From NCBI GenBank assembly GCA_913030825.1, contig CAJWCU010000012.1, positions 62,001-126,000 of the forward strand: a DNA stretch of 64,000 nucleotides, in the 5' to 3' direction. The notes under the pieces are model-generated. The model made no database searches, was not told the DNA's origin, and worked only from the letters and a program-made list of their open reading frames with translations. This document shows positions 19,457 to 34,756 of the stretch, in pieces (position 1 is the stretch's first letter; each line of letters opens with the position of its first letter). The stretch comes from an uncultured Rhodospirillaceae bacterium (GTDB lineage: Bacteria > Pseudomonadota > Alphaproteobacteria > Rhodospirillales > Casp-alpha2). A program made the translations under genes and the position numbers.

Positions 19457-20497
19457 TTAGGACACGGTCCAGGTCTTGCCGGCCGACAGCAGGCGGGAAA
19501 GACCCGCGCGGTCCATGGTCCGGGTGGGATCGTCTTCACGCAGGTCGGTGAAGCTTGCGCCCGGCGCGTGATAGACCACGCCCAGGGCGACCGGCAGGTC
19601 CGGGCCTTCCATGCGGGCGAGAATGGTCGCCAGCGCAAGGTTGGTCTGATCGTGGACGGTGACCTCATCGGCAGCGGCGCCGTCGCCCACCGGCACGACG
19701 CGGGCCGTACCCGTGGCCCAATCGACATGGATGCCCTTGTCGGCGTTCGCGCCGAAGATCAGCGGCTTGCCGTGTTCGACGCGGATCGTCCGCTCGGCCC
19801 CCGTGGCCTTGTCCTTGACCGCGTCGAAGGCGCCGTCGTTGAACACCACGCAGTTCTGCAGGATCTCGACGAACGAGGTCCCCCGGTTGGCATGGGCGGC
19901 CTTGAGCACGCCCGGCAGGTGGTCCTGCAGGGTATCGGCAGACCGCGCGACGAAGCGGGCACCCGCCCCCAGGGCCAACATGGCCGCGTTGACGGGTGCT
20001 TCGACCGAGCCGCCCGGCGACGAGGGCGAGCGCATGCCCGTCGCCGACGCCGGCGAATACTGGCCCTTGGTCAGGCCGTAGACCGCGTTGTTCGGCATCA
20101 GGAGATTGAGATCGACGTTGCGGCGAAGCGCGTGCATCAGATGATTGCCGCCGATCGACAGGAAATCCCCGTCGCCGCCGACGACCCAGACGTCCAGGTC
20201 CGGATTGGCCATCTTGACGCCCGTCGCGACGGCGGGGGCGCGGCCATGGATGGTGTGGAAGCCGTAGGAGGCGAGGTAATAGGGGAACCGCGCGGCGCAG
20301 CCGATGCCGGACACGAAGACGACGTCCTCGGGCCGGCGGCCGACGTCGGCCAGGGTCGCGCGGACGGCCTTCAGGATCGCGTAATCGCCGCAGCCGGGGC
20401 ACCAACGAACTTCCTGGTCCGAGGTGAAGTCGCGGGCGGTCAGCGGGGTAGTGGTATCGGCCTCGGGGGCGACGATGTCGGGATTCATGACGTTCAT
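19457..20497 (-). CDS. korB: 2-oxoacid:ferredoxin oxidoreductase, beta (ThDP) subunit
   Basis: 346-aa cytosolic protein. WCPGCGDYAILKA near residue 30 and the ThDP/Mg motif VVGGDGDFLSIGGNHLMHALRRNVDLNLLMPNNAVYG (GDG to NN) identify the beta subunit. With KorA it oxidatively decarboxylates a 2-oxoacid, most likely 2-oxoglutarate, to the acyl-CoA and reduces ferredoxin. The ATG at 20497 has GGGAG at 8 nt; a more upstream start would overlap korA. It follows korA by 13 nt. No ferredoxin subunit is encoded alongside, so a separate ferredoxin must accept the electrons. Confidence 0.9.
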   Translation of the reverse strand: MNVMNPDIVAPEADTTTPLTARDFTSDQEVRWCPGCGDYAILKAVRATLADVGRRPEDVVFVSGIGCAARFPYYLASYGFHTIHGRAPAVATGVKMANPDLDVWVVGGDGDFLSIGGNHLMHALRRNVDLNLLMPNNAVYGLTKGQYSPASATGMRSPSSPGGSVEAPVNAAMLALGAGARFVARSADTLQDHLPGVLKAAHANRGTSFVEILQNCVVFNDGAFDAVKDKATGAERTIRVEHGKPLIFGANADKGIHVDWATGTARVVPVGDGAAADEVTVHDQTNLALATILARMEGPDLPVALGVVYHAPGASFTDLREDDPTRTMDRAGLSRLLSAGKTWTVS

Positions 20498-20510
20498 GGC
20501 GGGGGCTCCC

Positions 20511-22385
20511 TTAGAAGTCTTCGCGAAGGGCGGCATCGATCTCCGCCACGGTGAAGGGCTGGCCGGTGACCTTGTTCAGGCCCCGGAACGGGATGTGCGG
20601 GAAACGGGCGCGCAGTTCGTCCAGCAACTGTCCCGAATTCAATTCGGCGACCACAATGCTGTCGAACAGGCCGAAAGTTTCCTCCAGCCCGCGCGGTAAC
20701 GGCGACAAGTTGCGCAGGTGCATATGGCCGACGGCATGGCCTTCGGCGTTCAACTCCTCGACCGTGGACTTGAGCACGCCGCGCGTCGATCCCCAGCCGA
20801 CGACCAGGACGCGGCCCGCGTCGTCGCCGGTTTCGATCTTGGCCGCGGGCAGGAAGTCGCGGATGCGGTCCAGCTTGGCGGCGCGCAGGTCGGTCATTTC
20901 CTGGTGGTTGTCGGGATCGTAGGAAATATGCCCCGATCCGGCCGACCGTTCGATGCCGCCCAGGCGATGGGCCAGGCCGGGCATGCCGGGCACGGCCCAG
21001 GCGCGGGCCAGGGTGTCTTGGTCACGGCGGAAGGGGTGGAAGCCTTCCGGATCGATGTCGCGGTTGATCGCGATATCGGCCATCGCGTCGACGTCCGGCA
21101 GGCGCCATGGTTCCGCCGCGTTGGCCGTATAGGCATCGGACAGCAGGATCACCGGCGTCATGAAGGTGGTCGCCACGCGGGCGGCTTCCAGGACTGTATC
21201 GAACGAATCGCCGGGGCCGGCGGCGGCGAAGACGGGCAGGGGGGCTTCGCCGTGGCGGCCCTTCAGGGCCATGTTCAGATCGGCCTGTTCGACCTTGGTC
21301 GGCATGCCGGTCGACGGCCCGGCGCGCTGCACATCGACGACGATCAGCGGCAGTTCGGCGGCGGCGGCTAGGCCCAGGGCCTCGGCCTTCAACGCCATGC
21401 CGGGGCCCGACGTGCCGGTCACGCCCAGGCCGCCCGCGAAGGACGCGCCGATGGCGGCGGTGGCGGCGGCGATCTCGTCTTCCGCCTGGAAGGTTGCGAC
21501 GCCTTCGCCTTCCAGCTTGGCGAGGCCGTGGAGGATCGCCGACGCAGGGGTGATGGGGTAGGAGCAATAATGCAGGCGCAGGCCCGACAGGGCGGATGCC
21601 GCCGTGAGGCCCAGTACGATACCGTCGATGCCGGTCAGTGTCTTGTAGGTGCCGGGCTTGGGCTGGGCCGCCGCAAGGGTGCGCAGGCGCGTCGGCGGGG
21701 CCATGTCGGTGACGTCGCCGTAGGTATGCCCGGCATCCAGCGCCGCGACGTTGGCCGCCGCAATCTCGGGCCGCTTGCCGAACTTCGTGCCGAGCCAGGC
21801 CGCCGTCGCCGACCGGTCCTGTTCGAACATCCAATAGACCAGACCGAGCGCCCAGAAGTTGCGGGCCTTGTCGGCGTCCTTCTTGGTCACGCCGGCCTCG
21901 GCGCGGCCGTCGGCCAGCGCCGCCTCGCGGGTCAGGCGGGAAATCTCGATGGCTTCGACGCGGTAATCGTCCAGGCTGCCGTCTTCCAGCGGGTTCGTCT
22001 CGTAGCCCGCTTTTTCCAAGCCGCGCTTGTTGAACGCGTCGGTGTCGATGAGCAGCAAGCCGCCCGGGCGCAGGGAGGGAAGGTTGGTCTTCAGCGCCGC
22101 CGGGTTCAGGGCGACCAGCACGTCGACCGTATCGCCGTGGGTCTTCACCGCGTCGCCGCCGATCTGAATCTGAAAGGCCGAGACGCCGAAGGTCGTGCCG
22201 GCGGGGGCGCGGATTTCCGCCGGGAAATCGGGGAAGGTCATGAAACCATGTCCGGCCAGGGCGGAGGATTTGGTGAATTCCGATCCCAGCGTCTGGATGC
22301 CGTCGCCGGAATCGCCGGCGAAGCGGACGACCGCGGCCGCCGTGCCGGTGGCGGGAAGATCGGAAGCGAAAGGTTGGTCGAGCAT
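20511..22385 (-). CDS. korA: 2-oxoacid:ferredoxin oxidoreductase, fused gamma-alpha subunit
   Basis: 624-aa protein. The gamma domain occupies about 1-190 (VVRFAGDSGDGIQTLGSEF, then DFPAEIRAPAGTTFGVSAFQIQIGG). The alpha pyrimidine-binding domain follows from about 255 (YCSYPITPASAILHGLAKL, FQAEDEIAAATAAIGASFAGG, TGTSGPGMALKAEALGLA). This gamma-alpha order is typical of KorA in aerobic and facultative bacteria. The start is ATG 22385 behind AAGGA. Together with korB it gives a CoA-dependent, NAD-independent route through a 2-oxoacid. Divergent from the DUF971 gene. Confidence 0.9.
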   Translation of the reverse strand: MLDQPFASDLPATGTAAAVVRFAGDSGDGIQTLGSEFTKSSALAGHGFMTFPDFPAEIRAPAGTTFGVSAFQIQIGGDAVKTHGDTVDVLVALNPAALKTNLPSLRPGGLLLIDTDAFNKRGLEKAGYETNPLEDGSLDDYRVEAIEISRLTREAALADGRAEAGVTKKDADKARNFWALGLVYWMFEQDRSATAAWLGTKFGKRPEIAAANVAALDAGHTYGDVTDMAPPTRLRTLAAAQPKPGTYKTLTGIDGIVLGLTAASALSGLRLHYCSYPITPASAILHGLAKLEGEGVATFQAEDEIAAATAAIGASFAGGLGVTGTSGPGMALKAEALGLAAAAELPLIVVDVQRAGPSTGMPTKVEQADLNMALKGRHGEAPLPVFAAAGPGDSFDTVLEAARVATTFMTPVILLSDAYTANAAEPWRLPDVDAMADIAINRDIDPEGFHPFRRDQDTLARAWAVPGMPGLAHRLGGIERSAGSGHISYDPDNHQEMTDLRAAKLDRIRDFLPAAKIETGDDAGRVLVVGWGSTRGVLKSTVEELNAEGHAVGHMHLRNLSPLPRGLEETFGLFDSIVVAELNSGQLLDELRARFPHIPFRGLNKVTGQPFTVAEIDAALREDF

Positions 22386-22637
22386 GGCCGAGGTCCTTTG
22401 CAATTGCCGGTGCTGTGCGCCGGTCTTGAAACGGAGATCGCCGGGGGCCGGAATCGGGCTTCGGCGAGGTTGGCCGGACTATGCCCGCGCGGCCGCCCTC
22501 CGTTCCGTCAATTAATTGCCGGGGAAAAATAAAGTCGGTTCTGTCAACGAATTGCTTTTCCGAAACAGGGTGCGGGTCTTGGATGGAGGCTGGAATTGCG
22601 GGAGCCCATCCCCCCATACGTTTTGAGGAGCCCGACC

Positions 22638-22991
22638 ATGCAGCCCACCGGTATCACCGTTCCCGCCGACCGTTCGTCGCTGGAAATCACCTGGCCCGAC
22701 GGCCTGCGCCAGAGCCTGAGCGCGCCCACCCTGCGTCAGATGAGCCGCTCCGCCCGATCAGAAGGTGCGCGCCTGAAAGGCTGGGACGTTCCCGCCGACG
22801 AGGATCTGACCATCACGGGCGTCGAGGCCGTCGGCGTCTACGCCATCAACATCGTCTTCTCGGACGGATACGCGAAAGGCATCTACCCCTGGGAAATGCT
22901 GCGCGGCGCCATCGGCGCGCTCGCCTTCAAAGGCATCGATACGGCCGTCGTCAACGCAATCGATGGGGCCATCGACGGCATTGGCAATTAG
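22638..22991 (+). CDS. DUF971 protein
   Basis: 117-aa protein starting at ATG 22638 behind GAGGAG. The sequence LEITWPDGLRQSLSAPTLRQMSRSA followed by DLTITGVEAVGVYAINIVFSDGYAKGIYPWEMLR is the DUF971 domain. This domain also forms the N-terminus of gamma-butyrobetaine hydroxylase-like proteins and occurs beside Fe-S assembly genes. The Cys residues found in many members after the LR motif (CPCAxC) are replaced here (MSRSARSEG). Its position just ahead of an iron-sulfur flavoprotein module suggests a role in its assembly, but only from context. Confidence 0.78.
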   Translation: MQPTGITVPADRSSLEITWPDGLRQSLSAPTLRQMSRSARSEGARLKGWDVPADEDLTITGVEAVGVYAINIVFSDGYAKGIYPWEMLRGAIGALAFKGIDTAVVNAIDGAIDGIGN

Positions 22992-23167
22992 TTGACAGAC
23001 AGCCGGTCATGGTGCGGTGCACCATGACGATAGAAACAAGTTACCTGAGGTGAAGGCACCCGCCGCGCCAAAGGCAGACAAGACCGACCAGACGTCCCCC
23101 CGCGTCGCATTGTACTTCAAGACATATGTGACCCAGGGGAGGCGCCAAAGACCGAAAGGACCGACCC
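22992..23167 (+). promoter_or_regulatory. Control region before the AprA-like gene, with a 23-nt palindrome
   Basis: A consensus -35 hexamer TTGACA lies at 22992-22997, directly after the DUF971 stop. No good -10 is found at 16-18 nt. Instead a hairpin/operator occupies 23006-23028: GTCATGGTGC, spacer GGT, then GCACCATGAC, ten perfect base pairs. This arrangement suggests regulator-controlled transcription of the AprA-like operon. Candidates are the GntR regulator at 26215 or the Crp/Fnr protein at 34037. Nothing else is seen up to AAAGGA before ATG 23168. Confidence 0.5.
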
Positions 23168-24907
23168 ATGGACGAAATCACCGAAGGCACCTCGCAAGTC
23201 GATTGCGACATCCTCGTCATCGGCGGCGGCACGGCCGGCCCGATGGCCGCCTATAAAGCCAAGAAGAAAAATCCCGACGCCAAGGTCATCCTCTTGGAAA
23301 AGGCCAATGTGAAGCGCTCCGGCGCCATCTCCATGGGTATGGACGGCCTGAACAACGCCGTCATCCCCGGCCATTCCACGCCCGAGCAGTATGTGAAGGA
23401 AATCACCGTCGCCAACGACGGCATCGTCGATCAGGCGGCGGTCCTGAAATACGCCGAGAACTGCTACGAAATCATTCAGGAGCTGGATAACTTCGGCATC
23501 CGTTTCCAGAAGGACGAGAACGGCGACTTCGACGTCAAGAAGGTGCACCACATCGGCACCTACGTCCTGCCCATGCCGAACGGCGACACCGTGAAGAAGG
23601 CGCTTTATCGCCAGCTCAAGCGGGCGCGTCTGCTGATCTCCAACCGCTACATGGCGACCCGCCTGCTGACCGGTAAGGACGGCCGCATCGCCGGCGCCAT
23701 CGCCGTCAACACGCGCAACGCCGAATTCCTGGTCGTTCGCGCCAAGGCCGTGATCCTCTGCATGGGGGCCGCCGGGCGTTTGGGCCTGCCGACCTCCGGA
23801 TACCTCTACGGCACGTATGAGAACGCCGCCAACTCGGGGGACGGTTACGCCATGGCGTATCATGCGGGTGCGGGCCTGGCGAACCTGGAATGCTTCCAGA
23901 TCAATCCGCTGATCAAGGACTACAACGGGCCCGCCTGTGCCTATGTGGCCGGGCCCTTCGGTGGCTATACGGCCAACAACGAAGGCATGCGCTTCATCGA
24001 ATGCGATTACTGGTCCGGCCAGATGATGCAGGAGTTCTACAACGAACTGCAGTCGGGCAAGGGGCCGGTCTTCCTGAAGCTCAACCACCTGGCCGACGAG
24101 ACGATCTCGGAAATCGAAACCATCCTGCACGAGGTCGAACGCCCGACCCGTGGCCGGTTCCAGGTCAATCGCCACAACGATTACCGCCACGGCATGATCG
24201 AGATGCATATTTCGGAAATCGGCTTCTGCTCGGGCCATTCGGCGTCCGGCGTCTATGTCGACGACAACGCCTGCACCACGGTGCCGGGCCTGTATGCCGC
24301 CGGCGACATGGCCAGCGTGCCGCATAACTACATGCTGGGGGCCTTCACCAACGGTGCGGTCGCCGGTGAACACGCCGTCGACTTCGTGAACGAGGTCGAT
24401 TTCGCCGACATCGACGAGGATTTCATCGCCGCCGAGAAGAAGCGCGTTCTGGCGCCGACCCTGCGCGACGACGGCATTCCGCCGAACCAGATCGAGTACA
24501 AGACCCGCCGCCTGGTCAACGACTACCTGCAGCCGCCCAAGGTCACCCGCAAGATGCAGCTGGCCCAGGATCGCTTCGCTGAAACGCGCGAGGCCATGGA
24601 AAACGAAATGGCCGTGACCAACGCCCACGAACTGATGCGCTCTCTCGAGGTCGCGTCGATCATGGACTGCGCCGACATGGCGGCCTTCGCCTCGCTGTTC
24701 CGCACGGAAAGCCGCTGGGGTCTTTATCACAACCGCGCCGATTATCCGGAACGGGACAACGAGAATTGGTTCTGCCACTCGATCCTGTCCAAGGACGACG
24801 CCGGTCAGATGACGATCCGCAAGAAGGAAGTCGATCCCTACGTCATCCCCATCGATGAAGACGAAAAGGACGCCTACGACAAACAGCGCATCAAGGCCCA
24901 GGCCTGA
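23168..24907 (+). CDS. AprA-like FAD flavoprotein (fumarate reductase / APS reductase superfamily)
   Basis: 579-aa cytosolic flavoprotein. The N-terminal dinucleotide fold is DCDILVIGGGTAGPMAAYKA with acidic EKANVKRSGAISMGMDGLN. The V-x-RSGA-x-x-MG-x-x-x-x-N segment and LDNFGIRFQKDENGDF match dissimilatory adenylylsulfate reductase alpha more closely than succinate dehydrogenase. The C-terminal FAD contact is TTVPGLYAAGDMASVPHNYMLGAFTNGAVAGEHA. An AprB-like ferredoxin follows 39 nt downstream. I cannot see the AprA sulfite/AMP site with confidence, and sat and dsr genes are absent. A role in oxidising a sulfur compound is plausible but unproven; the alternative is a 2-electron dehydrogenase of unknown substrate. 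AAAGGA precedes the ATG by 7 nt. Confidence 0.75.
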   Translation: MDEITEGTSQVDCDILVIGGGTAGPMAAYKAKKKNPDAKVILLEKANVKRSGAISMGMDGLNNAVIPGHSTPEQYVKEITVANDGIVDQAAVLKYAENCYEIIQELDNFGIRFQKDENGDFDVKKVHHIGTYVLPMPNGDTVKKALYRQLKRARLLISNRYMATRLLTGKDGRIAGAIAVNTRNAEFLVVRAKAVILCMGAAGRLGLPTSGYLYGTYENAANSGDGYAMAYHAGAGLANLECFQINPLIKDYNGPACAYVAGPFGGYTANNEGMRFIECDYWSGQMMQEFYNELQSGKGPVFLKLNHLADETISEIETILHEVERPTRGRFQVNRHNDYRHGMIEMHISEIGFCSGHSASGVYVDDNACTTVPGLYAAGDMASVPHNYMLGAFTNGAVAGEHAVDFVNEVDFADIDEDFIAAEKKRVLAPTLRDDGIPPNQIEYKTRRLVNDYLQPPKVTRKMQLAQDRFAETREAMENEMAVTNAHELMRSLEVASIMDCADMAAFASLFRTESRWGLYHNRADYPERDNENWFCHSILSKDDAGQMTIRKKEVDPYVIPIDEDEKDAYDKQRIKAQA

Positions 24908-24946
24908 TCCACCCCGTCGTAGACAGATAACACCAGGAGAATTCCC

Positions 24947-25180
24947 ATGCCTCTCGCACAACAATCCTCTTCCGTCCCGGTCGTCGTCGATGACGACAAG
25001 TGCATCGCCGACAAGGGCTGCACCGTCTGCGTCGATGTCTGCCCGCTGGACGTGCTGCGCATCTCGGATCAGACCGGCAAGGCGTTCATGAAGTACGACG
25101 AATGCTGGTACTGCATGCCCTGCGAGGCCGATTGCCCGACGGGTGCCGTGTCCGTGCATATCCCCTTCCTGCTGCGCTAA
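24947..25180 (+). CDS. AprB-like ferredoxin with two [4Fe-4S] clusters, tail-less
   Basis: 77-aa protein. Cluster motifs are C-x5-C-x2-C-x3-C-P (CIADKGCTVCVDVCP) and C-x2-C-x2-C-x3-C-P (CWYCMPCEADCP). The spacing in the first motif and the W-Y-C/W-E-C-type second motif resemble AprB, the electron-transfer partner of AprA. True AprB has about 150 residues with a long C-terminal tail wrapping AprA; here the protein ends just after the second cluster (AVSVHIPFLLR). It should carry electrons to or from the upstream flavoprotein. It is followed after 20 nt by the HEAT-repeat gene. Confidence 0.85.
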   Translation: MPLAQQSSSVPVVVDDDKCIADKGCTVCVDVCPLDVLRISDQTGKAFMKYDECWYCMPCEADCPTGAVSVHIPFLLR

Positions 25181-25200
25181 TCGATAAGGAGCCCGAGACC

Positions 25201-26163
25201 ATGTCCGCATTCGAGCCCTTCGAGCAGTTCGACGAAGTCGAAGATATCGTTGACCGTCTGGACGATCCCGATCCGGGGACCCGCCGGGTCGCCGTCATGG
25301 ATCTGGCCGACAGCGCCGACCCTTCGGCCGTGACCTATCTGAAAAAGGCGCTTGGTGACGAAGCCCGCGAAGTGCGGCTTCAGGTCGCCTTGGCGCTGGC
25401 CGAATTCGACGGCCCGGAAACGGCCGACGCCTTGGTCGTTGCCGTGGTCGACGAGGACGCGGGAGTCGCCCAGGCGGCCGCCGATTCCATGGCCGAATTG
25501 AAAGACCCGGCCGCCGCCGATCCGATCTTGCCCTTCGTGACCCACGAAAGTGCGTTCGTTCGCGCCGCTTCGCTGCGGGCCCTTCGCGAATTGAAGCGGA
25601 CCGAAAGCCTGAAGCCGGCACTCGACGCCTTCGGTGATGTCGACGCGACGGTTCGCTCCGAAGCGATCAGCGTCGTCGGCTATCTCAAGACCGAAGACGC
25701 CCTGCCGGCCCTGATGTCCATGTTGAAGGACGTGGAGCCTGCCGTGCGGCGGACCGCCGCCGGCGCGCTCGGATTTTCCGTGACGACGGCCGCCGCCGAG
25801 GCGCTGGCTCAGTCGCTGACCGACAGCGATTGGCAGGTTCGCGAAATTGCCGCCGAAACGCTGTGCAAGGTGCAGTCGACGGTCGCGGCCCCGGCCCTTC
25901 GCGCCGCCTTGACCGACGAATACTGGCAGGTCCGCCAGAAGGCGATCCGCTCGCTCGGCAAGCTGGGCGTGGCCGAGGCGGTGCCTGAAATCATCCCGTC
26001 GCTCGACCACGACATTTCCAACCTGCGCAAGGAAGCGGCGGCGGCTCTCGGCGAGATCGAAGCCCCCGAAGCCATTCCGGCGCTGGAAGCCCATCTCGAC
26101 GATCCCGATCCCGACGTCCGCAAGAACATCCGCTGGGCGCTCGGCCGGATCCGCAGCGAATAA
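25201..26163 (+). CDS. HEAT-repeat protein
   Basis: 320-aa soluble protein made almost entirely of about ten 30-residue helical repeats. Examples are DPDPGTRRVAVMDLADSADPSAVTYLKKAL, DEAREVRLQVALALAEFDGPETADALV, and D-x-x-x-x-VR-x-x-A-x-x-ALG patterns to the end. PBS-lyase/HEAT repeats make solenoid scaffolds. In this operon it may hold the flavoprotein and ferredoxin together, or replace the missing AprB tail; this is inference. ATG 25201 follows the ferredoxin stop by 20 nt with AAGGAG upstream. No signal peptide, so cytosolic. Confidence 0.88.
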   Translation: MSAFEPFEQFDEVEDIVDRLDDPDPGTRRVAVMDLADSADPSAVTYLKKALGDEAREVRLQVALALAEFDGPETADALVVAVVDEDAGVAQAAADSMAELKDPAAADPILPFVTHESAFVRAASLRALRELKRTESLKPALDAFGDVDATVRSEAISVVGYLKTEDALPALMSMLKDVEPAVRRTAAGALGFSVTTAAAEALAQSLTDSDWQVREIAAETLCKVQSTVAAPALRAALTDEYWQVRQKAIRSLGKLGVAEAVPEIIPSLDHDISNLRKEAAAALGEIEAPEAIPALEAHLDDPDPDVRKNIRWALGRIRSE

Positions 26164-26214
26164 GCGGAGCCACTTCACCGCCGATACCCCGAAACATTCG
26201 ACCCGTTCCCCGTT

Positions 26215-26967
26215 ATGAACCACGTGATCCAGAATATCGTGACCCAGGAAAGAGAGACCCTTCCGAAATACGTCGTGGTTCGCGATTGGCTGGCGCGGCG
26301 GATCAACGCCGGGGAGATTCAGCCGGGCTCGCGCCTGCCGTCGGAACATTCGCTGGTGGCCAAGTTCGGGGTCTCGCGGGTCACGGTGCGTCACGCGCTC
26401 GACGCCCTCAAGAAATCCGGCATGGTCGAAAGTCATCAGGGCCAGGGCCATTTCGTGCGCGGGGTCAAGGCGGAGTTGGACATGCGCCGGCTTCAGGGTT
26501 TGGGCGAAGCGCTCGGCCCGAACGGCATCGCCGCGACGGCGCGGCTGATCGAACGGACCGAGGTCAAAGCCAATACCCAGGTTCGCCAGGCCCTCGGCCT
26601 TGCGGCGGGAACGGCGGTGACCGCGGTCCGCCGCCTGCGTCTCGCGAACGGCGCGCCGGTCTGCCACGAAGAGCGGTTTCTTCTGAACGAAGTCACCAGC
26701 CCCCTGACCGACCGCGATCTGGAATCCAGCGACGTCTGCACCTTGCTTGAACGGTCGCGCGGCGTGCCGATCGCTTTCGGTGACGTGATCATGGATATGG
26801 TCAAGGCCGCCCCCCGGATGGCGGCGATGCTCGACATCGAACCGGGCGACACCGTCGTCCGCACCGAACAGGTGAACTTCGACGTCAACGGCGTCGCCAT
26901 CGATTTCTGCATTCGCCACGCGGTCGCCGAGGCGTTCCGTTACCGCACCCGCATCGGCCGTTGGTAG
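26215..26967 (+). CDS. GntR-family regulator, HutC/UTRA type
   Basis: 250-aa regulator. The winged helix is about residues 17-83 (INAGEIQPGSRLPSEHSLVAKFGVSRVTVRHALDALKKSGMVESHQGQGHFV). The UTRA domain follows (ARLIERTEVKANTQVRQALGLAAGTAVTAVRRLRLANGAPVCHEERFLL), a chorismate-lyase-like fold that binds small ligands. It lies 51 nt after the HEAT gene and 10 nt before tlpA, inside the AprA-like/ABC block, so it is the best candidate local regulator. Possible sites are the palindromes at 23006-23028 and 27794-27807. The effector may be the substrate of the NitT/TauT-type importer. Confidence 0.87.
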   Translation: MNHVIQNIVTQERETLPKYVVVRDWLARRINAGEIQPGSRLPSEHSLVAKFGVSRVTVRHALDALKKSGMVESHQGQGHFVRGVKAELDMRRLQGLGEALGPNGIAATARLIERTEVKANTQVRQALGLAAGTAVTAVRRLRLANGAPVCHEERFLLNEVTSPLTDRDLESSDVCTLLERSRGVPIAFGDVIMDMVKAAPRMAAMLDIEPGDTVVRTEQVNFDVNGVAIDFCIRHAVAEAFRYRTRIGRW

Positions 26968-26977
26968 GGCGTCGGCG

Positions 26978-27553
26978 ATGCGCCGCCCGCCCCGCCGCCA
27001 AACTCTCATCTTTCTTCGGAATTCCGTTTTATCCGCTGCTCTTCTGATCGGTGCCGCCGGTGCCGAATGTGTTGCCGCCGGGCACGAGCCAATGGCCCAG
27101 GCGCCGCAATCCATTTCGGCCCCGGACCTGAACCTGCCCGATCTCGAGGCTGCCGCCTTTTCGCTGCACGACCGGAAGGGACGATTCACCCTGGTGAATT
27201 TCTGGGCCTTGTGGTGTGCGCCTTGCCGGATCGAGATGCCGGCGCTTGGAAAATTGCAGGCGCGGCTGGCGCCCAGGGGGTTGCGCGTGGTCGCCGTGAA
27301 CCTGGGCGACAAAAGGTCCGGGATCGACCGTTTCTTGAAACAAGTCGATGTCGGCGATTTGACCATTCTGCTCGACGCCGACGGCGTGGCAGGACGCGAT
27401 TGGCACGTCGGCGGCCTGCCCGCGACGTATCTGGTCGGGCCGACGGGCGAGATCACCCATGCCGCGCTCGGCGCGCGGGAATGGGCGGATGATGCGACCG
27501 TTTCCTGGTTTGAGAATATCCTCGCGTCGGCGCCGAAAGGGGCCGGGCAATGA
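26978..27553 (+). CDS. TlpA-like periplasmic thioredoxin
   Basis: 191-aa protein. A hydrophobic stretch (FLRNSVLSAALLIGAAGAECVAAG) gives a Sec signal or anchor; the Cys in this stretch is not a clear lipobox. The thioredoxin fold has the active site NFWALWCAPCRIEMPALGKL and cis-Pro in GLPATYLVG. TlpA/ResE-type proteins reduce periplasmic disulfides, including Cu-centre cysteines of SCO and cytochrome oxidase and apocytochrome c. That fits the downstream SCO, PCuAC and cytochrome c genes. It ends 327 nt before the binding-protein gene. Confidence 0.88.
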   Translation: MRRPPRRQTLIFLRNSVLSAALLIGAAGAECVAAGHEPMAQAPQSISAPDLNLPDLEAAAFSLHDRKGRFTLVNFWALWCAPCRIEMPALGKLQARLAPRGLRVVAVNLGDKRSGIDRFLKQVDVGDLTILLDADGVAGRDWHVGGLPATYLVGPTGEITHAALGAREWADDATVSWFENILASAPKGAGQ

Positions 27554-27880
27554 TGGCCGGACGGCATTTTCAGCCGTGTTCGGGCACCGATCCGATACGC
27601 CGGCGCGGGGCATTTTCAGCCGATCGCACCGCTGCCGTAAAGGCAACTTGTATCTTCGAGCCGGCGGACTCTGTGACTAAAAATTATACAGAAATATGGC
27701 GGAGATTAAAAAATCACCACTTGCTATGCGCGATGCAACAAAAATCCACAAAAAACCTATTTTTCTTCTTTAAAAACAATAACTTAAAATTACTTCGCAG
27801 ATGCGAAAACTGGCAAGCTAATTGCAGTTATATAGGGTGAAACGAGACAACTTTGATGCAGAGCAAAGGAGAATTTAACA
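27554..27880 (+). promoter_or_regulatory. AT-rich control region with sigma-54-like promoter
   Basis: 327 bases, strongly AT-rich from about 27660 to 27840. TGGCAAGCTAATTGCA at 27811-27826 matches the sigma-54 consensus except one non-core base, with GG and GC 12 apart. TTCGCA-GA-TGCGAA at 27794-27807 is a perfect inverted repeat just upstream. TTGC...GCAA at 27721-27736, containing GATGCAA, is about 80-90 nt upstream of the -24 box, where an enhancer-binding protein could sit. The start would be near 27837, giving a 44-nt leader to ATG 27881 behind AAAGGAG. No sigma-54 activator gene is in the window. Confidence 0.55.
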
Positions 27881-29245
27881 ATGCTCAGGCACATTACTCA
27901 GGGACTCGCGTTGGGGGCCGTACTGGCGCTCACGGCAATGGCGCCGGCCCAGGCGAAGACCATCAAGGTCGCCATCGGCCACCAAAGCATGTGCACGGAT
28001 ACCTATACCGCGGGTATCGTGGTCAAGGAGCTCAAGCTTCTTGAGAAGTACCTGCCGAAAGACGGCAAGTACAAGGACGTCGAATACGACATCAGCTGGG
28101 CCGACTATTCCTCGGGCGGCCCGATCACCAACCAGATGATGGCCAACAAGCTGAACATCGGCGTGATGGGCGATTATCCGCTGATCGTCAACGGTGCCAA
28201 GTTCCAGGCCACCGACAGCCTGCGCACCTATTACGTCGCGGGCACCGGCTACAACCTCAAGGGCTCGGGCAACGCCATCGTGGTTCCCGTGAAATCCGAT
28301 CTCTATAAGATCGGCGACCTCGAAGGTAAGGCCGTGTCGACCCCCGTCGGCTCCGCCGCCTGGGGCATGCTGCTCAAGGCCGCGCAGGACAACAACATCA
28401 AGTTCCAGTTGAAGAACCAGAGCCCGGCCGTGGGTGCGGCGAACATTGCCGCCGGCAAGATCGACGCCCACTCGGATTTCTGCCCCTGGTCCGAAATCAT
28501 GGAATTCCGCGGCACCGGCCGCAAGATCTACGACGGCTCGGAAGCCGGCGTTCCCTATCTGCACGGCGTCGTCGTGCGCAAGGATCTCGCCGACGATTAT
28601 CCGGAAGTCGTTCAGGCCTTCATCAAGGCCGTCTACGCCGCCGGCAAGTGGATCAAGGAAGACCCCATGCGGGCCACCGACCTGATGGAAAAGTGGACCG
28701 GCGTCGAGAAAGAGGTGCTGTTCATCTACTTCTCCGAAGGCGGTCACCTGACCCTCGATCCGACGATCAAGCCCAAGTGGACGGAAGCGTTGAAGTTCGA
28801 CCACACGGTCCTGGTCAAGGAAAAGGCCATCCCGCCGTTGGATTTCGACGACTGGATCGACGAGAAGTACATCAAGGCCGCCTACAAGGACATGGGCGTC
28901 GACTACGAGGCCGACAAAGCCGCGATCGTCGATCCCAAGGTCGCCAATGCGGGCCTGCCGAACCAGATCTGGCACGCGCGTGACGGGATCAAGGAATTCA
29001 AAACCCTTCCCGAATTCCTGACCGCGGTCGCCAAGTTCCGTGCGACGGGCGCCAAGATCAATTCGACCTACGTCTACGACGTCGAAACGGGCCTCAAGCT
29101 GTTCGGTAAGACCGCCTTCTGGGTCGTCACGCCGAAGGGTGAGTTTTCGACCTTCCTGCGCCGTGGCGAAGCCGAAAAGTTCGCGGCCTCGTCGGGTGGC
29201 AAGGTCATCGACTTCGACGAAGCCATCGCGATGAAGTCGAGCTAA
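27881..29245 (+). CDS. NitT/TauT-type ABC substrate-binding protein with NosL-like C-terminus
   Basis: 454-aa protein with a Sec signal (LALGAVLALTAMAPAQA, mature KTIKVAIG). Residues about 26-340 match NitT/TauT/SsuA binding proteins: GGPITNQMMANKLNIGVMGDYPLIV, GKAVSTPVGSAAWGMLLKA, DYPEVVQAFIKAVYAAGKWI. Those normally total 320-340 residues. The extra C-terminal part, about 375-450, reads STYVYDVETG..., TAFWVVTPKGEFSTF and AEKFAASSGGKVIDF, close to the second half of NosL, the copper chaperone of N2O reductase. The CGM copper motif of NosL is not present. Cys38 and Cys201 are in the binding-protein part. Ligand unknown; sulfonate, nitrile or a metal complex are options. Confidence 0.82.
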   Translation: MLRHITQGLALGAVLALTAMAPAQAKTIKVAIGHQSMCTDTYTAGIVVKELKLLEKYLPKDGKYKDVEYDISWADYSSGGPITNQMMANKLNIGVMGDYPLIVNGAKFQATDSLRTYYVAGTGYNLKGSGNAIVVPVKSDLYKIGDLEGKAVSTPVGSAAWGMLLKAAQDNNIKFQLKNQSPAVGAANIAAGKIDAHSDFCPWSEIMEFRGTGRKIYDGSEAGVPYLHGVVVRKDLADDYPEVVQAFIKAVYAAGKWIKEDPMRATDLMEKWTGVEKEVLFIYFSEGGHLTLDPTIKPKWTEALKFDHTVLVKEKAIPPLDFDDWIDEKYIKAAYKDMGVDYEADKAAIVDPKVANAGLPNQIWHARDGIKEFKTLPEFLTAVAKFRATGAKINSTYVYDVETGLKLFGKTAFWVVTPKGEFSTFLRRGEAEKFAASSGGKVIDFDEAIAMKSS

Positions 29246-29259
29246 TCACACGCCAGAAT

Positions 29260-29300
29260 GGCGGGGCGGCGATTATCCGACCGTCGCCCCGCCGCTTTTT
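29260..29300 (+). terminator. Intrinsic terminator/attenuator after the binding-protein gene
   Basis: Arms GGCGGGGCGGCG (29260-29271) and CGTCGCCCCGCC (29282-29293), one mismatch, 10-nt loop, then GC and TTTTT (29296-29300). Partial readthrough would yield more binding protein than permease, as is common for ABC importers. The remaining 200 nt before ATG 29510 shows no clear promoter. Confidence 0.85.
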
Positions 29301-29509
29301 CCTAACCGCTTGCCGCGCCGCCCGGAAACGGGCGGCACGGTTCGCGGAAAGACCGGAAATCCCGGCAGCCGACCGAACGAATCGCCCCCACGGGCCGACC
29401 GACGACCAAGACCTCTAACCTGCGCAGGCGGTGACGCTTGCAACCCGCCGGCCCCAAGTCCGGCGCAGCCAAAAACGAAGAAAACCGAATTCCAAGGAGC
29501 CATGGCGCA

Positions 29510-30451
29510 ATGAATGCTTCCCCCCCCGATACGCAGGCGACCGCAGGTGCCGTCGCCACGGCTGCGCCCGACGGCGCGCCCGAAGCCATGGATGCCGCCG
29601 AAGGCGAAGCCGATCGTCCGGTGACCCCGCGCGAGGCCGTCTCGGTCCTGATCGCCGCCGCCTTGAAACCGAAGGCGGTCAAAGCCTTCGCCAAATCCTG
29701 GTCGATCCGCCTGACCGCCTTGGCCGTCGGGGTCCTGATCTGGCAATGGGCGACCGCGATCAACTTCAACTACTTCATCAATTTCGAGAACATCCCGTCG
29801 CCGGTGAAGGTCTGGACGGCCTTCGTCGCGCATGTTCAATCGACCGAGTTCTACATTCACATCGCGGTGTCGATGCAGCGCATCTTCATCGGCTACATGA
29901 GCGCCGTCGGCCTGGGCATTCTGCTCGGCCTGGTGATCGGCCGCTCGCGCCTGGCCCGCGATGTGATCTCGCCCTATATCGAAATTCTTCGCCCGATCCC
30001 GGCCGTCGCCTGGATCCCGCTGGCCATCCTGATGTGGCCGACCGAGGAAAGCTCGATCATCTACATCACGTTCCTGGGCGCCCTGTTCCCGATCATCCTG
30101 AACACCGCCCATGGGGCGGAGCTGACGCCGGACGTCCTGATCCGCGCCGCCAAGTCGCTGGGCGCCAACCGGCGCGAGATTTTCTGGCACGTCGTCATTC
30201 CGGCGGCTCTGCCGTCGATCACGGCGGGCCTCGCCATCGGCATGGGGGTTTCTTGGTTCTCGCTACTGGCCGGCGAAATCATTTCGGGCCAGTACGGTAT
30301 CGGCTACTTCACCTGGAACGCCTACTCCCTGATCAACTATCCCGACATCGTCGTCGGGATGCTGATGATCGGCGGTCTGGGTACGCTCTCGACCTATGCC
30401 GTGCGCCTGGCCACCCGGCCGCTGCTGAGTTGGCAGAGGAGATCGCGATGA
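29510..30451 (+). CDS. ABC permease, NitT/TauT (SsuC/TauC) type
   Basis: 313-aa inner-membrane protein with a 50-residue Ala/Pro-rich cytosolic tail, then six TM helices. The coupling loop is AAKSLGANRREIFWHVVIPAALPSI, preceded by EILRPIPAVAWIPLAILMW, both typical of SsuC/TauC. ATG 29510 has AAGGAG at 10 nt; the nearer ATG 29502 opens only a three-codon frame (ends TGA at 29513) that overlaps the start and might tune initiation. The stop overlaps the next start by 4 nt. It transports the ligand of the binding protein at 27881. Confidence 0.9.
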   Translation: MNASPPDTQATAGAVATAAPDGAPEAMDAAEGEADRPVTPREAVSVLIAAALKPKAVKAFAKSWSIRLTALAVGVLIWQWATAINFNYFINFENIPSPVKVWTAFVAHVQSTEFYIHIAVSMQRIFIGYMSAVGLGILLGLVIGRSRLARDVISPYIEILRPIPAVAWIPLAILMWPTEESSIIYITFLGALFPIILNTAHGAELTPDVLIRAAKSLGANRREIFWHVVIPAALPSITAGLAIGMGVSWFSLLAGEIISGQYGIGYFTWNAYSLINYPDIVVGMLMIGGLGTLSTYAVRLATRPLLSWQRRSR

Positions 30452-31178
30452 CCGCCGCCGTCTTGAATTCGCCCCGCCTGCATCGCATCCGCGAGGCCGT
30501 CGCCGCTCGGCCGCGTCTCTGGCTGGCGGTGACGCTTGGTTTTCCCGTGGTCTATTACCTGGGCATGTTCGCGGCCCTGTTGATCCGGTTCCAGGCGCTG
30601 CCCAATTACACGGAAACCTTCGATTGGTTCGGCAACGTCGCGGAGATCGTCCGATCGACCCCCGACTGGTCCGACATCTGGCCGATCATCGGCCAGGAAT
30701 GGTTGTTCGAGGTCGGGCGCATGAATTACGACTACGGCGCCGGGATTTCCGAATGGAGTCTCTACATCAATCCGACCAAGTTCGGCCTGATCCTGATCCT
30801 GGGCGGCCTGACGGCGACGGCCTTTAATCTGATGCTGGCCCGCCGCGCGGCCTGTTCGGCCTCGCGCCTGAATGGTGGCGCCGCCGCCGGCGGCCTGGGT
30901 GCCGCTCTGGTCGGCATGACCAACGTGACCCTTGCCTGGGTCGTCTGTTGCGCGACGCCCAACTGGGTCGTCGGCTTGGCGATCCTGGGTCTCGGCGTTT
31001 CCACTTCGCTGTGGCTGGAACAGTTCGGCTGGTGGATCGAATACGCCGGCTTCGGCCTGTTGCTGGCCTCGCTCTATGTCTTGTCCGGCGAGCCGAAGGC
31101 CCCCGGCGGCAAACCGGCGGACAGTGCCGGTGGCCACGATGATCACCATTATCCGAATACAGCCATGGGAGCCTCCCG

Positions 31179-31182
<4 letters not shown>
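30448..31182 (+). CDS. Orphan polytopic membrane protein inserted in the ABC operon
   Basis: 244-aa protein I do not recognise. Helices are visible at about 25-45 (LWLAVTLGFPVVYYLGMFAALLI), 112-130 (FGLILILGGLTATAFNLML), 145-170 (AAGGLGAALVGMTNVTLAWVVCC), 173-190 and 197-215. A 60-residue loop after helix 1 (LPNYTETFDWFGNVAE...) is rich in Trp, Tyr and Asp and probably periplasmic. A C-terminal His/Asp tail (GGHDDHHYP) could bind metal. It has no permease coupling loop. 4-nt overlaps with the permease before and the ATPase after imply tight coexpression, so it is probably a transporter subunit or adjoining membrane redox/metal protein. Confidence 0.7.
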
Positions 31183-32051
<869 letters not shown>

Positions 32052-32097
32052 TCCGAAAGCCATACGCTCCAGCCCTCATAGACCCAAAGGCCCCGCC

Positions 32098-32727
32098 ATG
32101 ATCCGCCCGCTTTCCTTCGTCTTCGTCCTGATCGCCGTCGTCGGCTTCGGCATGAGTTGGGGGGCGGCAGGCGCGCAAGCGGGCGCGCTTCGCGTGGTCG
32201 AGCCGGACCCGCCCGCGGCCCTGCCGGAATTCGCCTTGAAGGATCACCGGGGCAAGCCCTTCACGGCGGAGCGGTTCAAGGGCAAATGGACGCTTCTGGC
32301 CATCGGTTTCACGTCCTGCCCGGACGTCTGTCCGTTCGTGCTGTCGAACCTGGACGCGGTCGTCACCCAGTTATCGACCCGGGTTCGCCCCGACAACCTG
32401 CCCCAGGTGATCTTCGTTGCCGTCGACCCGAAGCGGGACGCGCCGGTGTTGGGCGAATACGTGCGTCATTTCAACGACGACTATCTGGGCGTCACCGGCA
32501 GTCACGACGAATTGAAGAAATTCGTCGTCGGTATCGACGGCTTCTACCGCATCGGAAAGCCGGACAAGGACGGCGACTACGAGGTCCAGCATAGCGCCAG
32601 CGTGATCGTCATCGGCCCCGACGCCCGCATTCACGCCAAGTTGTCGCCGCCGTTGCCGCCCGGCGAAGTCGCCGAGTACATCGCGCAAAAGCGCATCCTC
32701 TTCGCTCGGGAACAAAGGACCAACTGA
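32098..32727 (+). CDS. SCO1/SenC copper chaperone
   Basis: 209-aa protein with an N-terminal membrane anchor/signal (LSFVFVLIAVVGFGMSW) and a thioredoxin-like fold. The copper site is complete: C-x3-C in GFTSCPDVCPFVL and the distal His in EVQHSASVIVIGP. SCO proteins deliver Cu or reduce CuA cysteines during cytochrome oxidase assembly, and related proteins serve other Cu enzymes. It is directly followed, without gap, by the PCuAC gene. TlpA upstream (26978) could act as its reductant. Confidence 0.92.
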   Translation: MIRPLSFVFVLIAVVGFGMSWGAAGAQAGALRVVEPDPPAALPEFALKDHRGKPFTAERFKGKWTLLAIGFTSCPDVCPFVLSNLDAVVTQLSTRVRPDNLPQVIFVAVDPKRDAPVLGEYVRHFNDDYLGVTGSHDELKKFVVGIDGFYRIGKPDKDGDYEVQHSASVIVIGPDARIHAKLSPPLPPGEVAEYIAQKRILFAREQRTN

Positions 32728-33285
32728 ATGACCCGCTCCGTTTCCAACTCCTGCCTGGGGTGCCTCGCCGGTGCCGCGCTGGCCGTTCTTGCCACAGTGC
32801 CGTTGGCCCCTGCCCAGGCTTGCGAAGCGCACGCCGCGTATAAGACCGAATTGGCCGAAGCCGAGAGCGCCGTCATGGCGATGGACGCTTGGGTGCCGCT
32901 GGCACCTCCCGGGCTGAAGGCGCATGCGGCCTATCTGATTCTGATGAACCATGGGACCGAGGCCCGCGCCGTTACGGCGGTCTCCAGCCCACAGTACAAA
33001 TCCGCGATGCTGCACCTCAGTTCCATGAAGGACGGCGTCGCCATGATGCAGCATCTGGCCCAGGTCGATATCCCGGCCGGCGGCAAGGTGGCGTTCGAAC
33101 CTCACGGCCTGCACATCATGCTGATGGGCCCCAAAGGTCCGCAGGCCGAGGGCGACACCGTGGATCTGTCCTTCACCCTGGACGACGGATCGACGCTTGA
33201 GGTCGCGGCCAAGGTGATGAAGCGGGCGGACGCCCCGGCCCCCATGGATCACGGTGCCATGGGCCATGGCCACAAAGGCATGTGA
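32728..33285 (+). CDS. PCuAC-type periplasmic copper chaperone
   Basis: 185-aa protein with a Sec signal (LAGAALAVLATVPLAPAQA). The PCuAC site is H-x3-M (LHLSSM), M in MMQHL and H-x-M in GLHIMLMGPKG. The C-terminus adds a Met/His tail (MDHGAMGHGHKGM), a second likely Cu site seen in some members. PCuAC passes Cu(I) to SCO and CuA in cytochrome oxidase. ATG directly follows the SCO stop. An atypical N-terminal Cys pair (SCLGC) lies within the signal. The downstream cytochrome gene starts inside its 3' end. Confidence 0.92.
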   Translation: MTRSVSNSCLGCLAGAALAVLATVPLAPAQACEAHAAYKTELAEAESAVMAMDAWVPLAPPGLKAHAAYLILMNHGTEARAVTAVSSPQYKSAMLHLSSMKDGVAMMQHLAQVDIPAGGKVAFEPHGLHIMLMGPKGPQAEGDTVDLSFTLDDGSTLEVAAKVMKRADAPAPMDHGAMGHGHKGM

Positions 33286-33967
33286 CCGCACCGCCTTGAC
33301 CGAGCAATCCTCCCGACAGTTCGTCCTGCCGCAAGCGACTTGGATCGCCTGGGCCGCTTGGGCGGCCCTGGTCGTCTTGGCGGTCCTGGTCGCGGCAATG
33401 CCCGCGCGCGCCGGCATGATCGACGAAAGCGGCCTGCAACCTTGGGAGAATTGTGCGCTGTGCCATTCCCTGGACGGCGTCTCGCGCATGGCCAAGTTTC
33501 CCAAGTTGGCGGCCCAGGTGCCGGCCTATATCGAAAAGCAGATCCATGATTTTCGCGAAGGCCGCCGCACCAACGACGGCGAACAGATGCAGGCCATGGC
33601 CGGGCTGATTGCCGAGAAAGACATTCCCATCGTCGCCAAATATTTCGGCGGCCTGCCGCCGCCGCCGCCCGCCGAAATGCCGCCCCCGGCCGAGGCCGAA
33701 TTGGGCGCATCCCTGTTCCTGAAGGGCGATCCGGCACGGGACCTGCCCGCCTGTGTTTCCTGTCACGGCAAGGACAAGGTCGCATCCTCCGGGGCGGCCC
33801 GGTTGGAGGCACAGCACGCGGACTATGTTATAAAGCAGGTGACGGACTTCCGGTCGGGGGCGCGGGCCAACGATCCGAAGGGCGTCATGTCCGCCGTCGC
33901 GGCGAAGTTGACGGACGCGGATATCCGGGCCGTCGGCGGCTTCATCGCCGCCCAGGAACGGAAATAA
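33266..33967 (+). CDS. Diheme cytochrome c (c4-like)
   Basis: About 233-aa protein with a long N-terminal anchor/signal (ATWIAWAAWAALVVLAVLVAAMPARAG). There are two heme sites: CALCHSLDG and CVSCHGKDK, in duplicated domains separated by a proline stretch (LPPPPPAEMPPPAEAE). Met ligands are likely in the QMQAMAGL and GVMSAVAA segments. Such proteins carry electrons to oxidases in the periplasm. The start is uncertain: ATG 33266 overlaps PCuAC, GTG 33254 and TTG 33296 are in frame, and none has a good ribosome site, so coupling to PCuAC translation is likely. Confidence 0.85.
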   Translation: MATKACDRTALTEQSSRQFVLPQATWIAWAAWAALVVLAVLVAAMPARAGMIDESGLQPWENCALCHSLDGVSRMAKFPKLAAQVPAYIEKQIHDFREGRRTNDGEQMQAMAGLIAEKDIPIVAKYFGGLPPPPPAEMPPPAEAELGASLFLKGDPARDLPACVSCHGKDKVASSGAARLEAQHADYVIKQVTDFRSGARANDPKGVMSAVAAKLTDADIRAVGGFIAAQERK

Positions 33968-34036
33968 CGTCGGCTCATGGCGGATGTCAGGGGCAAATTG
34001 CGGCTGGTCGCGGACAGGACGGCAGGAAACGCGGAT

Positions 34037-34756
34037 ATGACGACGGACGAACCCCTTTCCGCGCTGTTCCTGTCGGAAAGCATGGCGGATTTGAACGAGG
34101 GCGCGACCTTCCTCGACCGTCTCAGCATGGAAGAGGTCACCTTCATCCGGTCGCGCGGTTCCACCATCAAGGCATCGCGGGGCGAAGGCATCTTTCACCA
34201 AGGCGACCCCCACGAAGGCATCTTCCTGATTGAAAGTGGGCGCGTGCGAACCTTCTGCACCGGGCCGTCGGGGCGCGAACTGACGCTCGCCTATTGGACG
34301 CCCGGCCATTTCATCGGCGGGCCCGAGGTCTTTGGCGGGACCCATTTGTGGTCCGGCGAGGCGATGGAGGATTCCCGGGTCATGGCGCTGTCGGGCACGG
34401 TCGTCCGCGACCTGATCGAACGCATGCCGATCTTCGCGCTCTGCCTGATCGACGGTCTGGTCGCCAAGGGAAAATGTTATTCCCAACTGGTTCAGATGCT
34501 GGGCACCCGATCGGTCAGCCAGCGCCTGGCGCAATTGCTGAAGATCATGGGCGAAGTCCACGGCACGCCCGACGACGACGGCCTTCTGATCGACCGGCGG
34601 GTCACCCATGACCAATTGGCGGACATCGTCGGCTCGACGCGGCAATGGGTCACGACGACCCTGGACCGCTGGCAGAAAGACGAGATCATCCTGATCCGTG
34701 GACGCATGATCGTCATCCGCCAATCCGACACTTTGGAAGACCTGGCGGACTCCTGA
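34037..34756 (+). CDS. Crp/Fnr-family regulator
   Basis: 239-aa regulator. The cyclic-nucleotide-type beta barrel is about 20-140 (FLDRLSMEEVTFIRSRG..., GIFHQGDPHEGIFLIESGRVRTF). The long helix and winged helix follow (RLAQLLKIMG..., VTHDQLADIVGSTRQWVTTTLDRWQKDEII). There is no Cys cluster like that of Fnr, so it is not a standard oxygen sensor. AGGAAA precedes ATG 34037 by 7 nt; ATG 33977 would add 20 residues with no ribosome site. It closes the copper/cytochrome run and may regulate it. Confidence 0.87.
   Translation: MTTDEPLSALFLSESMADLNEGATFLDRLSMEEVTFIRSRGSTIKASRGEGIFHQGDPHEGIFLIESGRVRTFCTGPSGRELTLAYWTPGHFIGGPEVFGGTHLWSGEAMEDSRVMALSGTVVRDLIERMPIFALCLIDGLVAKGKCYSQLVQMLGTRSVSQRLAQLLKIMGEVHGTPDDDGLLIDRRVTHDQLADIVGSTRQWVTTTLDRWQKDEIILIRGRMIVIRQSDTLEDLADS

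Follow-up and report, generated by a model that had tools for sequence, protein, structure and literature searches.

In the genome of an uncultured Rhodospirillaceae bacterium (GCA_913030825.1), a 64-kb stretch of contig CAJWCU010000012.1 (positions 62,001-126,000, forward strand; hereafter the window, to whose positions all coordinates refer) carries three consecutive plus-strand open reading frames (ORFs) at 23168-26163. They encode a flavoprotein related to AprA, the alpha subunit of adenylyl-sulfate (APS) reductase, a small ferredoxin and a HEAT-repeat protein, of 579, 77 and 320 amino acids, respectively. A preliminary annotation made from the letters alone (the sequence-only reading) had pointed to these three genes, and they are real and lie where it placed them. 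Together with an ATP-binding cassette (ABC) importer they form a cassette, often plasmid-borne, for which we tentatively propose a role in importing a sulfonate-type compound and processing it reductively: an AprA-class three-part enzyme would be fed with electrons from reduced nicotinamide adenine dinucleotide phosphate (NADPH) and would release sulfite. In our estimation this proposal falls a little short of an even chance.

The neighbourhood of flavoprotein, ferredoxin, HEAT protein and importer, whose survey the sequence-only reading had proposed, is conserved. The full set (flavoprotein, ferredoxin, HEAT protein, binding protein, permease and ATPase) occurs at 79 of the 90 loci flanked by 6 kb or more on either side, and at 87 of all 105 loci. 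These 105, which exclude the window's own, comprise 80 loci from genome contigs, 22 from plasmids and 3 from a survey of the class, and one representative of each family was confirmed by Pfam. The cassette is common under the misleading name of fumarate reductase, with at least 589 confirmed stretches in genome contigs, of which the best 80 were taken, and 52 matching plasmid records, 13 of them typed conjugative. The class survey found the flavoprotein gene in 4 of 289 genomes, the window's own included.

The flavoprotein (23168..24907, plus strand) belongs to the NF006131/PRK08275 family with a score of 1066 bits (NCBIfam cut-off 587), a family that carries only the generic name “fumarate reductase/succinate dehydrogenase flavoprotein subunit”. 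The second-best NCBIfam model is PRK13800/NF010374 (826 bits, cut-off 1196), whose 898 positions hold the flavoprotein at 1-568, followed by HEAT repeats. Scores under the cut-off were obtained with the models of adenylyl-sulfate reductase alpha (PRK06854, 282 of 557 bits), of succinate dehydrogenase and fumarate reductase (SDH/FRD; TIGR01812, 172 of 567) and of AprA (TIGR02061, 157 of 642), the last of which places the protein outside AprA. The closest solved protein by sequence is the alpha subunit of the 3'-phosphoadenylyl-sulfate (PAPS) reductase of Methanothermococcus (MtPAPSR) with 208 bits, compared to 141 for A. fulgidus AprA and 97 for E. coli SdhA; a profile of 30 relatives searched against the PDB gave 278, 201 and 128 bits, respectively. 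A fold search of the PDB gave PAPS reductase as the top entry and AprA as the third, with SDH/FRD close behind. Because the AlphaFold model used for it has a mean predicted local distance difference test score (pLDDT) of 67, with values below 50 at residues 242-271, 346-357 and other stretches and poor quality around the active site, we treat this ranking as no more than supportive.

The kinship was further analyzed in a tree of 41 proteins, namely 23 of the cassette family, 4 AprA, MtPAPSR, 6 SDH, 3 SDH-like proteins and 4 labelled NadB (L-aspartate oxidase) from a PF02910 match and motifs, without family assignment. The cassette family forms a branch of its own (100/100), AprA and MtPAPSR form another (100/99), and these 28 proteins are set apart from the remaining 13 (100/99). 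A second tree, calculated without one long-branched row from the window's genome, yielded the same three groups (99/98, 100/100 and 100/100). In both midpoint-rooted trees the flavoprotein stands in a separate clade and not inside AprA. In the first tree the four PF02910 proteins of the window's genome do not group with AprA. Because the root is a midpoint, a sister relationship of the cassette flavoprotein to AprA is likely, not proven. The trees agree with the suggestion of a variant oxidoreductase allied to AprA, since the protein falls outside both the SDH and the NadB-labelled rows. The Pfam model of the APS-reductase C-terminal domain had no match in the genome (95.9% complete), but the control with this model matched nowhere.

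The active-site columns were read from an alignment of 40 rows, among them 23 cassette-family members, four AprA and MtPAPSR; A. fulgidus residue numbers were counted by hand from alignments. We take the FAD (flavin adenine dinucleotide) His, His242, Thr254, Arg286, His354 and Arg399 (E. coli SdhA numbering) to be the FAD-linking, catalytic and dicarboxylate-binding set of SDH/FRD. This set is lost in all 23 members: His242 is replaced by Asn, Thr254 by Ala and His354 by Ile (21 members) or Val (2), the FAD-linking His aligns with Gly, and Arg286 and Arg399 have no counterpart in the family. Arg-275 of the window protein is therefore not the counterpart of the catalytic Arg286. All 23 members keep the equivalent of AprA's Asn74, the Lys-Asp pair that follows Arg265 and the SE..GH His. 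MtPAPSR and all four AprA rows retain Arg265 and Trp234 (A. fulgidus numbering), presumably the substrate Arg and Trp of AprA, whereas every cassette member has Leu and Tyr instead. Because AprA residues are kept while these two are invariably replaced, the flavoprotein is, on these columns, of AprA-like build with a different and strictly conserved pocket. Membership in AprA itself is contradicted by the Leu at position 265 and by the TIGR02061 score, and by these tests the protein is AprA-like, yet not an APS reductase. As for the two sequence landmarks that had first suggested the likeness, the RSGA stretch (KRSGA in the window) is common to the four AprAs and PAPS reductase (RSGA or RSGC). 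KDENG is present in the window protein and in PAPS reductase (PDB-code: 8a8o), but it is no family trait, its Glu being retained in only 11 of 23 members, and we discarded it as an AprA landmark for this reason; the four AprA rows have MRNPKTG, MKDPETG or MKNPETG at this place.

Could the enzyme nevertheless be an assimilatory APS/PAPS reductase of the MtPAPSR kind, with the importer being a separate sulfonate transporter that shares only its regulation? MtPAPSR is the closest solved protein and came first in the fold search. The retention of Arg265 and Trp234 in MtPAPSR, compared to Leu and Tyr in all 23 members here, argues against this, and an intracellular substrate such as APS or PAPS would make the importer, found with the trio at 79 of 90 loci, needless. 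The genomes themselves point the same way. Proteins matching PF01507, a family that covers both CysH and CysD, occur in 16 of 21 cassette genomes, among them the window's own. The five genomes lacking it speak for the assimilatory explanation, but four of them hold a true AprA, as a separate gene; these are the only true AprAs among the 20 cassette genomes searched. From this distribution it follows that the flavoprotein is no substitute for AprA and, in most genomes, not the sole candidate for (P)APS reduction. We therefore regard an assimilatory reductase of this kind as improbable. PF01077, which unites sulfite and nitrite reductases, has a match in 20 of the 21 genomes, again including the window's own.

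The second gene (24947..25180, plus strand; Pfam Fer4) encodes a ferredoxin with two [4Fe-4S] motifs. As had been predicted, it resembles the core of AprB in its cluster motifs, to which the alignment adds a tryptophan, Trp-54, within the CWxC of the second cluster motif, invariant in 29 of 29 aligned ferredoxins and part of CWEC in four AprBs. The predicted lack of the AprB tail was borne out as well: the ferredoxin measures 77 amino acids here and 75-81 at 99 of 99 loci measured (own included), compared to AprB open frames of 157, 172 and 173 amino acids at three loci and 246, with a long upstream run-in, at a fourth. The sequence-only reading had suggested that the HEAT solenoid may take the place of this tail; because the beta subunit of methanogen PAPS reductase is also short (104 amino acids in MtPAPSR), a short beta subunit alone calls for no replacement. 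For Trp42 of that subunit, the corresponding tryptophan, a role in electron transfer to FAD has been proposed (PMC10322725, in excerpt).

The HEAT-repeat subunit (25201..26163, plus strand; Pfam HEAT_2, 188 bits) matches positions 623-872 of the PRK13800 model with 86 bits. Purine-rich, AGGAG-like stretches precede the ATG of both the ferredoxin and the HEAT gene. The ferredoxin lies near the flavoprotein at 104 and the HEAT protein at 102 of the 105 loci; the three loci without a separate HEAT gene are two actinobacterial ones in which it is fused to the flavoprotein (893 and 939 amino acids; L090 and L100) and a contig of 4.3 kb (L070). The HEAT protein is thus a constant partner of the flavoprotein. 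As a guess, it could hold the short ferredoxin in the manner of a scaffold or offer the electron donor a docking place. Pairwise distances over 28 representatives, which include shared ancestry and a few binding-protein rows that are partial or of another type (L087, L088), correlate at 0.86 between flavoprotein and HEAT protein, at 0.76 between flavoprotein and ferredoxin and at 0.74 between binding protein and ATPase.

The importer is encoded on the plus strand by genes for a binding protein (27881..29245), a permease (29438..30451; PF00528, 85 bits) and an ATPase (31179..32051; PF00005, 117 bits). The binding protein is of the SsuA/TauA type, although it scores under the NCBIfam cut-offs for both SsuA (SsuA_fam, 103 of 163.5 bits) and TauA. 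At 1e-5 its profile retrieved only four PDB sequences: TauA, E. coli SsuA, a putative Methylobacillus SsuA and one “nitrate transport protein”, the entries of which are titled alkanesulfonate-binding SsuA. Structural matches 1-8 of its model (pLDDT 88) are all SsuA or TauA, followed at rank 10 by a domain of the bicarbonate transporter CmpC, at rank 11 by the desulfinase DszB and at rank 16 by the nitrate-binding NrtA. Pocket positions of TauA and SsuA were counted by hand. The Gln aligned with that of SsuA (IGYQ) is kept in 21 of 21 binding proteins, as is the equivalent of Gly61, while at the equivalent of Gly79 13 proteins have Gly and 8 have Ala. According to the available part of PMC6906117, the SsuA Gln is equivalent to the sulfonate-binding Gln30 of TauA, and Asp205 and Glu106 are the amine-binding residues of TauA. 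These latter two are lost, Asp205 being replaced by His in 21 of 21 proteins and Glu106 by Ala, Gly, Ser or Met, and the cargo is likely a sulfonate that carries no amine where taurine has one. The idea of a sulfur compound entering through this importer is supported by SsuA and TauA being the nearest solved structures and by sulfur genes next to several relatives of the cassette.

The C-terminal 90 residues of the binding protein (28925-29242) form a NosL-like domain, which 13 of the 21 relatives show at an E value of 0.05; one fragment lies above the Pfam cut-off and the window's own domain below. Because most members have few Cys or Met, copper binding by this domain is doubtful.

A compound other than a sulfonate has to be weighed here. 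The imported molecule might be another anion or organic compound in which a C=C, N-O or other bond is reduced, with the sulfur neighbours being incidental. The importer superfamily also carries nitrate, bicarbonate and pyrimidines, in keeping with CmpC at rank 10 and NrtA at rank 16, the strictly conserved pocket differs from that of AprA, and some copies have no sulfur neighbour. However, a sulfonate is favoured by the eight top structural matches of the binding protein, by the sulfonate-site Gln and Gly, which do not vary among the 21 proteins, and by the sulfite-type exporters near 32 of 105 loci, and the loss of the catalytic Arg and the dicarboxylate-binding residues of SDH/FRD argues against reduction of this other sort. 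We consider a non-sulfonate substrate unlikely.

The neighbours of the cassette suggest where electrons might come from and where the product might go. Among the 105 loci we found DUF971 at 63, a ferredoxin reductase (FNR) at 48, the 7Fe ferredoxin FdxA at 31 and Mrp/NBP35 at 4; FNR or FdxA occurs at 57 and both at 22. YeiH is present at 29 loci and TauE at 5, so that 32 have at least one of the two, which we treat as sulfite exporters following the part of PMC12423496 available to us. Loci named Bradyrhizobium make up 29 of the 105 and are not independent. FdxA and FNR adjoin the cassette of Methylobacterium radiotolerans JCM 2831, which lies on pMRAD01, and such a pattern of neighbours recurs in roseobacters and in one Burkholderiales metagenome-assembled genome (MAG); YeiH and TauE are annotated beside cyanobacterial cassettes and TauE in Aquabacterium. 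Plasmid copies have further sulfur genes at their side: tauA and ssuD, 3-mercaptopropionate dioxygenase and rhodanese, sulfate/sulfonate importers with TauD, and metX with O-acetylhomoserine sulfhydrylase.

Our proposal joins these observations into one scheme. The trio would be a single soluble AprA-class enzyme made of a FAD subunit, a two-cluster ferredoxin subunit and a HEAT-solenoid subunit, to which the ABC importer would supply a sulfonate-type anion, probably one without taurine's amine. NADPH would supply electrons, which ferredoxin reductase and FdxA would relay to the 77-residue ferredoxin, and the latter would feed the flavin via its conserved tryptophan. In analogy to the reaction of APS reductase with APS, the reduced flavin would then remove the sulfo group of the imported compound, and the sulfite set free would either serve growth through the cell's sulfite reductase or be exported by YeiH or TauE. 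We infer the complex of three proteins, the order and direction of electron flow, the sulfite product, the bond cut and the substrate. The reductive direction is suggested by the FNR and FdxA neighbours in relatives, and sulfite as the product by YeiH and TauE.

The opposite direction has a precedent in AprAB, which operates oxidatively in sulfur oxidisers: electrons would then pass from sulfite or another sulfur compound to the ferredoxin. True AprA also occurs in 4 of 20 cassette genomes, which could speak for such a metabolism, but it is a separate gene there. Moreover, FNR and FdxA are better suited to a reductive role, and exporters of the sulfite type suggest that sulfite is produced and not consumed. 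An oxidative enzyme accordingly seems to us very improbable.

Several observations weigh against a reductive desulfonating cassette. Because Arg265 and Trp234 are Leu and Tyr in all 23 members, the mechanism of AprA cannot be transferred whole, and for the chemistry at flavin N5 carbon is a poorer leaving group than adenosine monophosphate. The importer tracks the reductase weakly, the distances of flavoprotein and binding protein correlating at r 0.45; the pattern of distances fits one three-part enzyme that would be served by an exchangeable importer. Part of the set is missing at 11 of the 90 loci, of which 2 are fusions, 6 yielded neither binding protein nor permease nor ATPase, and 3 are short of one or two components; at one of the six, in Nostoc (L088), an annotated sulfonate binding protein below the detection threshold adjoins the flavoprotein. 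FNR and FdxA are both missing near 48 of 105 loci, neither exporter is found near 73, 21 of the 32 loci with one are Bradyrhizobium, and several copies have no evident sulfur neighbour. In the 64 kb of the window itself FNR, FdxA, YeiH, TauE and Mrp have no match, so that electron supply and export in this genome are extrapolated from relatives.

Upstream of the trio lies a gene for a DUF971/GBBH-like_N protein (22596..22991, plus strand; PF06155, 69 bits), perhaps an Fe-S maturation factor. The GntR/UTRA protein encoded directly after the trio (26215..26967, plus strand; PF07702, PF00392), for which a comparable gene exists at 33 of 100 loci, is the probable regulator of the cassette. Between permease and ATPase an ORF of 250 amino acids (30430..31182, plus strand) has no Pfam match and a relative at 9 of 100 loci. 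A scan of 22300-32200 for promoters and terminators gave 1 promoter-like and 7 terminator-like sites, no excess over shuffles. An A+T-rich stretch precedes the binding-protein gene (27680-27870); no promoter-like site was detected in it, and its sole terminator-like site (27793-27808) is on the minus strand and belongs to this same set, no larger than in shuffles. Downstream of the importer (32098-34756) lie genes for SCO1/SenC, a PCu(A)C copper chaperone, a cytochrome c and a Crp-type regulator, and similar genes follow the importer at about 10 of 100 loci (SCO 10, cytochrome 9, PCuAC 8). The minus-strand genes at 19457-22403, divergent to the cassette, resemble 2-oxoacid:ferredoxin oxidoreductase, a label given by inspection of the ORFs without family assignment. 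We rejected them as the electron donor, since a korA match was found at 1 of 100 loci, the window's own.

Among the relatives, the cassette is often found on rhizobial plasmids (L085, L092, L098, L099, L103, L105, L106), several of which are conjugative and come from isolates of nodules, and a 44-kb Acinetobacter baumannii plasmid (L093, 11238-18449) carries it in full together with a GntR regulator and DUF971. Bphy_7232-37 of Paraburkholderia phymatum (on pBPHY01; PMC8305402, seen in excerpt) was dismissed as a further copy, because the pBPHY01 record yields no match in the plasmid search. On plasmid pTcM1 of Acidithiobacillus caldus (L087, 10574-14035), FdxA and a FAD-dependent oxidoreductase of 1153 amino acids, a possible alternative electron donor, follow directly behind the trio. 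Next to a cyanobacterial cassette (L089, 7388-9424) a LysR regulator is fused to an NMT1-type binding domain and may sense the compound that is imported; long LysR proteins are also annotated at L094 and L104. In a Rhodospirillaceae MAG (L005, 9001-10734), the closest named relative among the matches listed (82% identity), the flavoprotein gene has an in-frame stop, reflecting either a pseudogene or an assembly error; this genome also holds a true AprA.

Aerobic desulfonation is thought to depend on oxygenases and lyases, and AprAB is ordinarily encountered in sulfate respiration and sulfur oxidation. The cassette, widespread yet unstudied, may represent an unrecognised bacterial route to sulfur from organic compounds. 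It is conceivable, though on balance doubtful, that it constitutes a new oxygen-compatible route of sulfur assimilation, in which aerobic proteobacteria, cyanobacteria and actinobacteria would import an organosulfonate and desulfonate it reductively by a HEAT-containing flavin enzyme of the AprA class. This enzyme would stand in for the usual oxygenases, and its genes would have spread as an often plasmid-borne cassette, among others on plasmids of root-nodule bacteria. If the enzyme desulfonates, the organosulfur cycle of soil, sea and root nodules would gain a reductive step that needs no oxygen, and the AprAB machine would prove to have acquired a new pocket and scaffold. Homology searches with loose thresholds may register members of the family as aprA or sdhA. 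We found no publication on the NF006131 cassette family in the open-licence literature; the available parts of papers on Advenella (PMC5373536), Gordonia (PMC7661421) and Rhodococcus (PMC8557817) do not mention the cassette, and PRK13800 is named once in that of PMC8401276.

Several known systems can be compared with the cassette. With MtPAPSR of Methanothermococcus thermolithotrophicus it shares a FAD alpha subunit and a short two-cluster ferredoxin beta subunit with a tryptophan between cluster and FAD. The two flavoproteins are about 28% identical, but MtPAPSR keeps the Arg265 and Trp234 equivalents, whereas the HEAT subunit and the importer are on the side of the cassette. In the available excerpt of PMC10322725 the MtPAPSR genes are grouped with sulfate-activation genes and the catalytic residues are retained. 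AprAB has in common with the cassette the alpha fold, the RSGA stretch, Asn74, the Lys-Asp pair, the SE..GH His, the AprB cluster core and the CWxC Trp; it differs in the substrate Arg and Trp, in the AprB tail and in lacking the HEAT partner, as well as in its surroundings of sat and dsr compared to an importer here, where no search for sat or dsr was made. The actinobacterial fusion NF010374/PRK13800 has the same flavoprotein and HEAT repeats in one chain, in contrast to two separate genes here. The SDH/FRD flavoprotein shares the FAD-binding fold and the C-terminal domain, but its residue set is lost here. With SsuABC and TauABC the importer shares the fold of the binding protein and the Gln and Gly of the sulfonate site, and it differs by the His for Asp205, the small residue for Glu106 and the extra NosL-like domain; it is linked to a reductase, while those systems are linked to SsuD or TauD. 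Reductive sulfite release from an imported sulfonate has been proposed for the isethionate reductase IsrBHDK of Rhodobacter capsulatus (PMC11423573, in excerpt), which, unlike the cassette enzyme, is nitrogenase-like, has a radical SAM (S-adenosylmethionine) partner and is anaerobic, the excerpt not naming an NF006131 flavoprotein.

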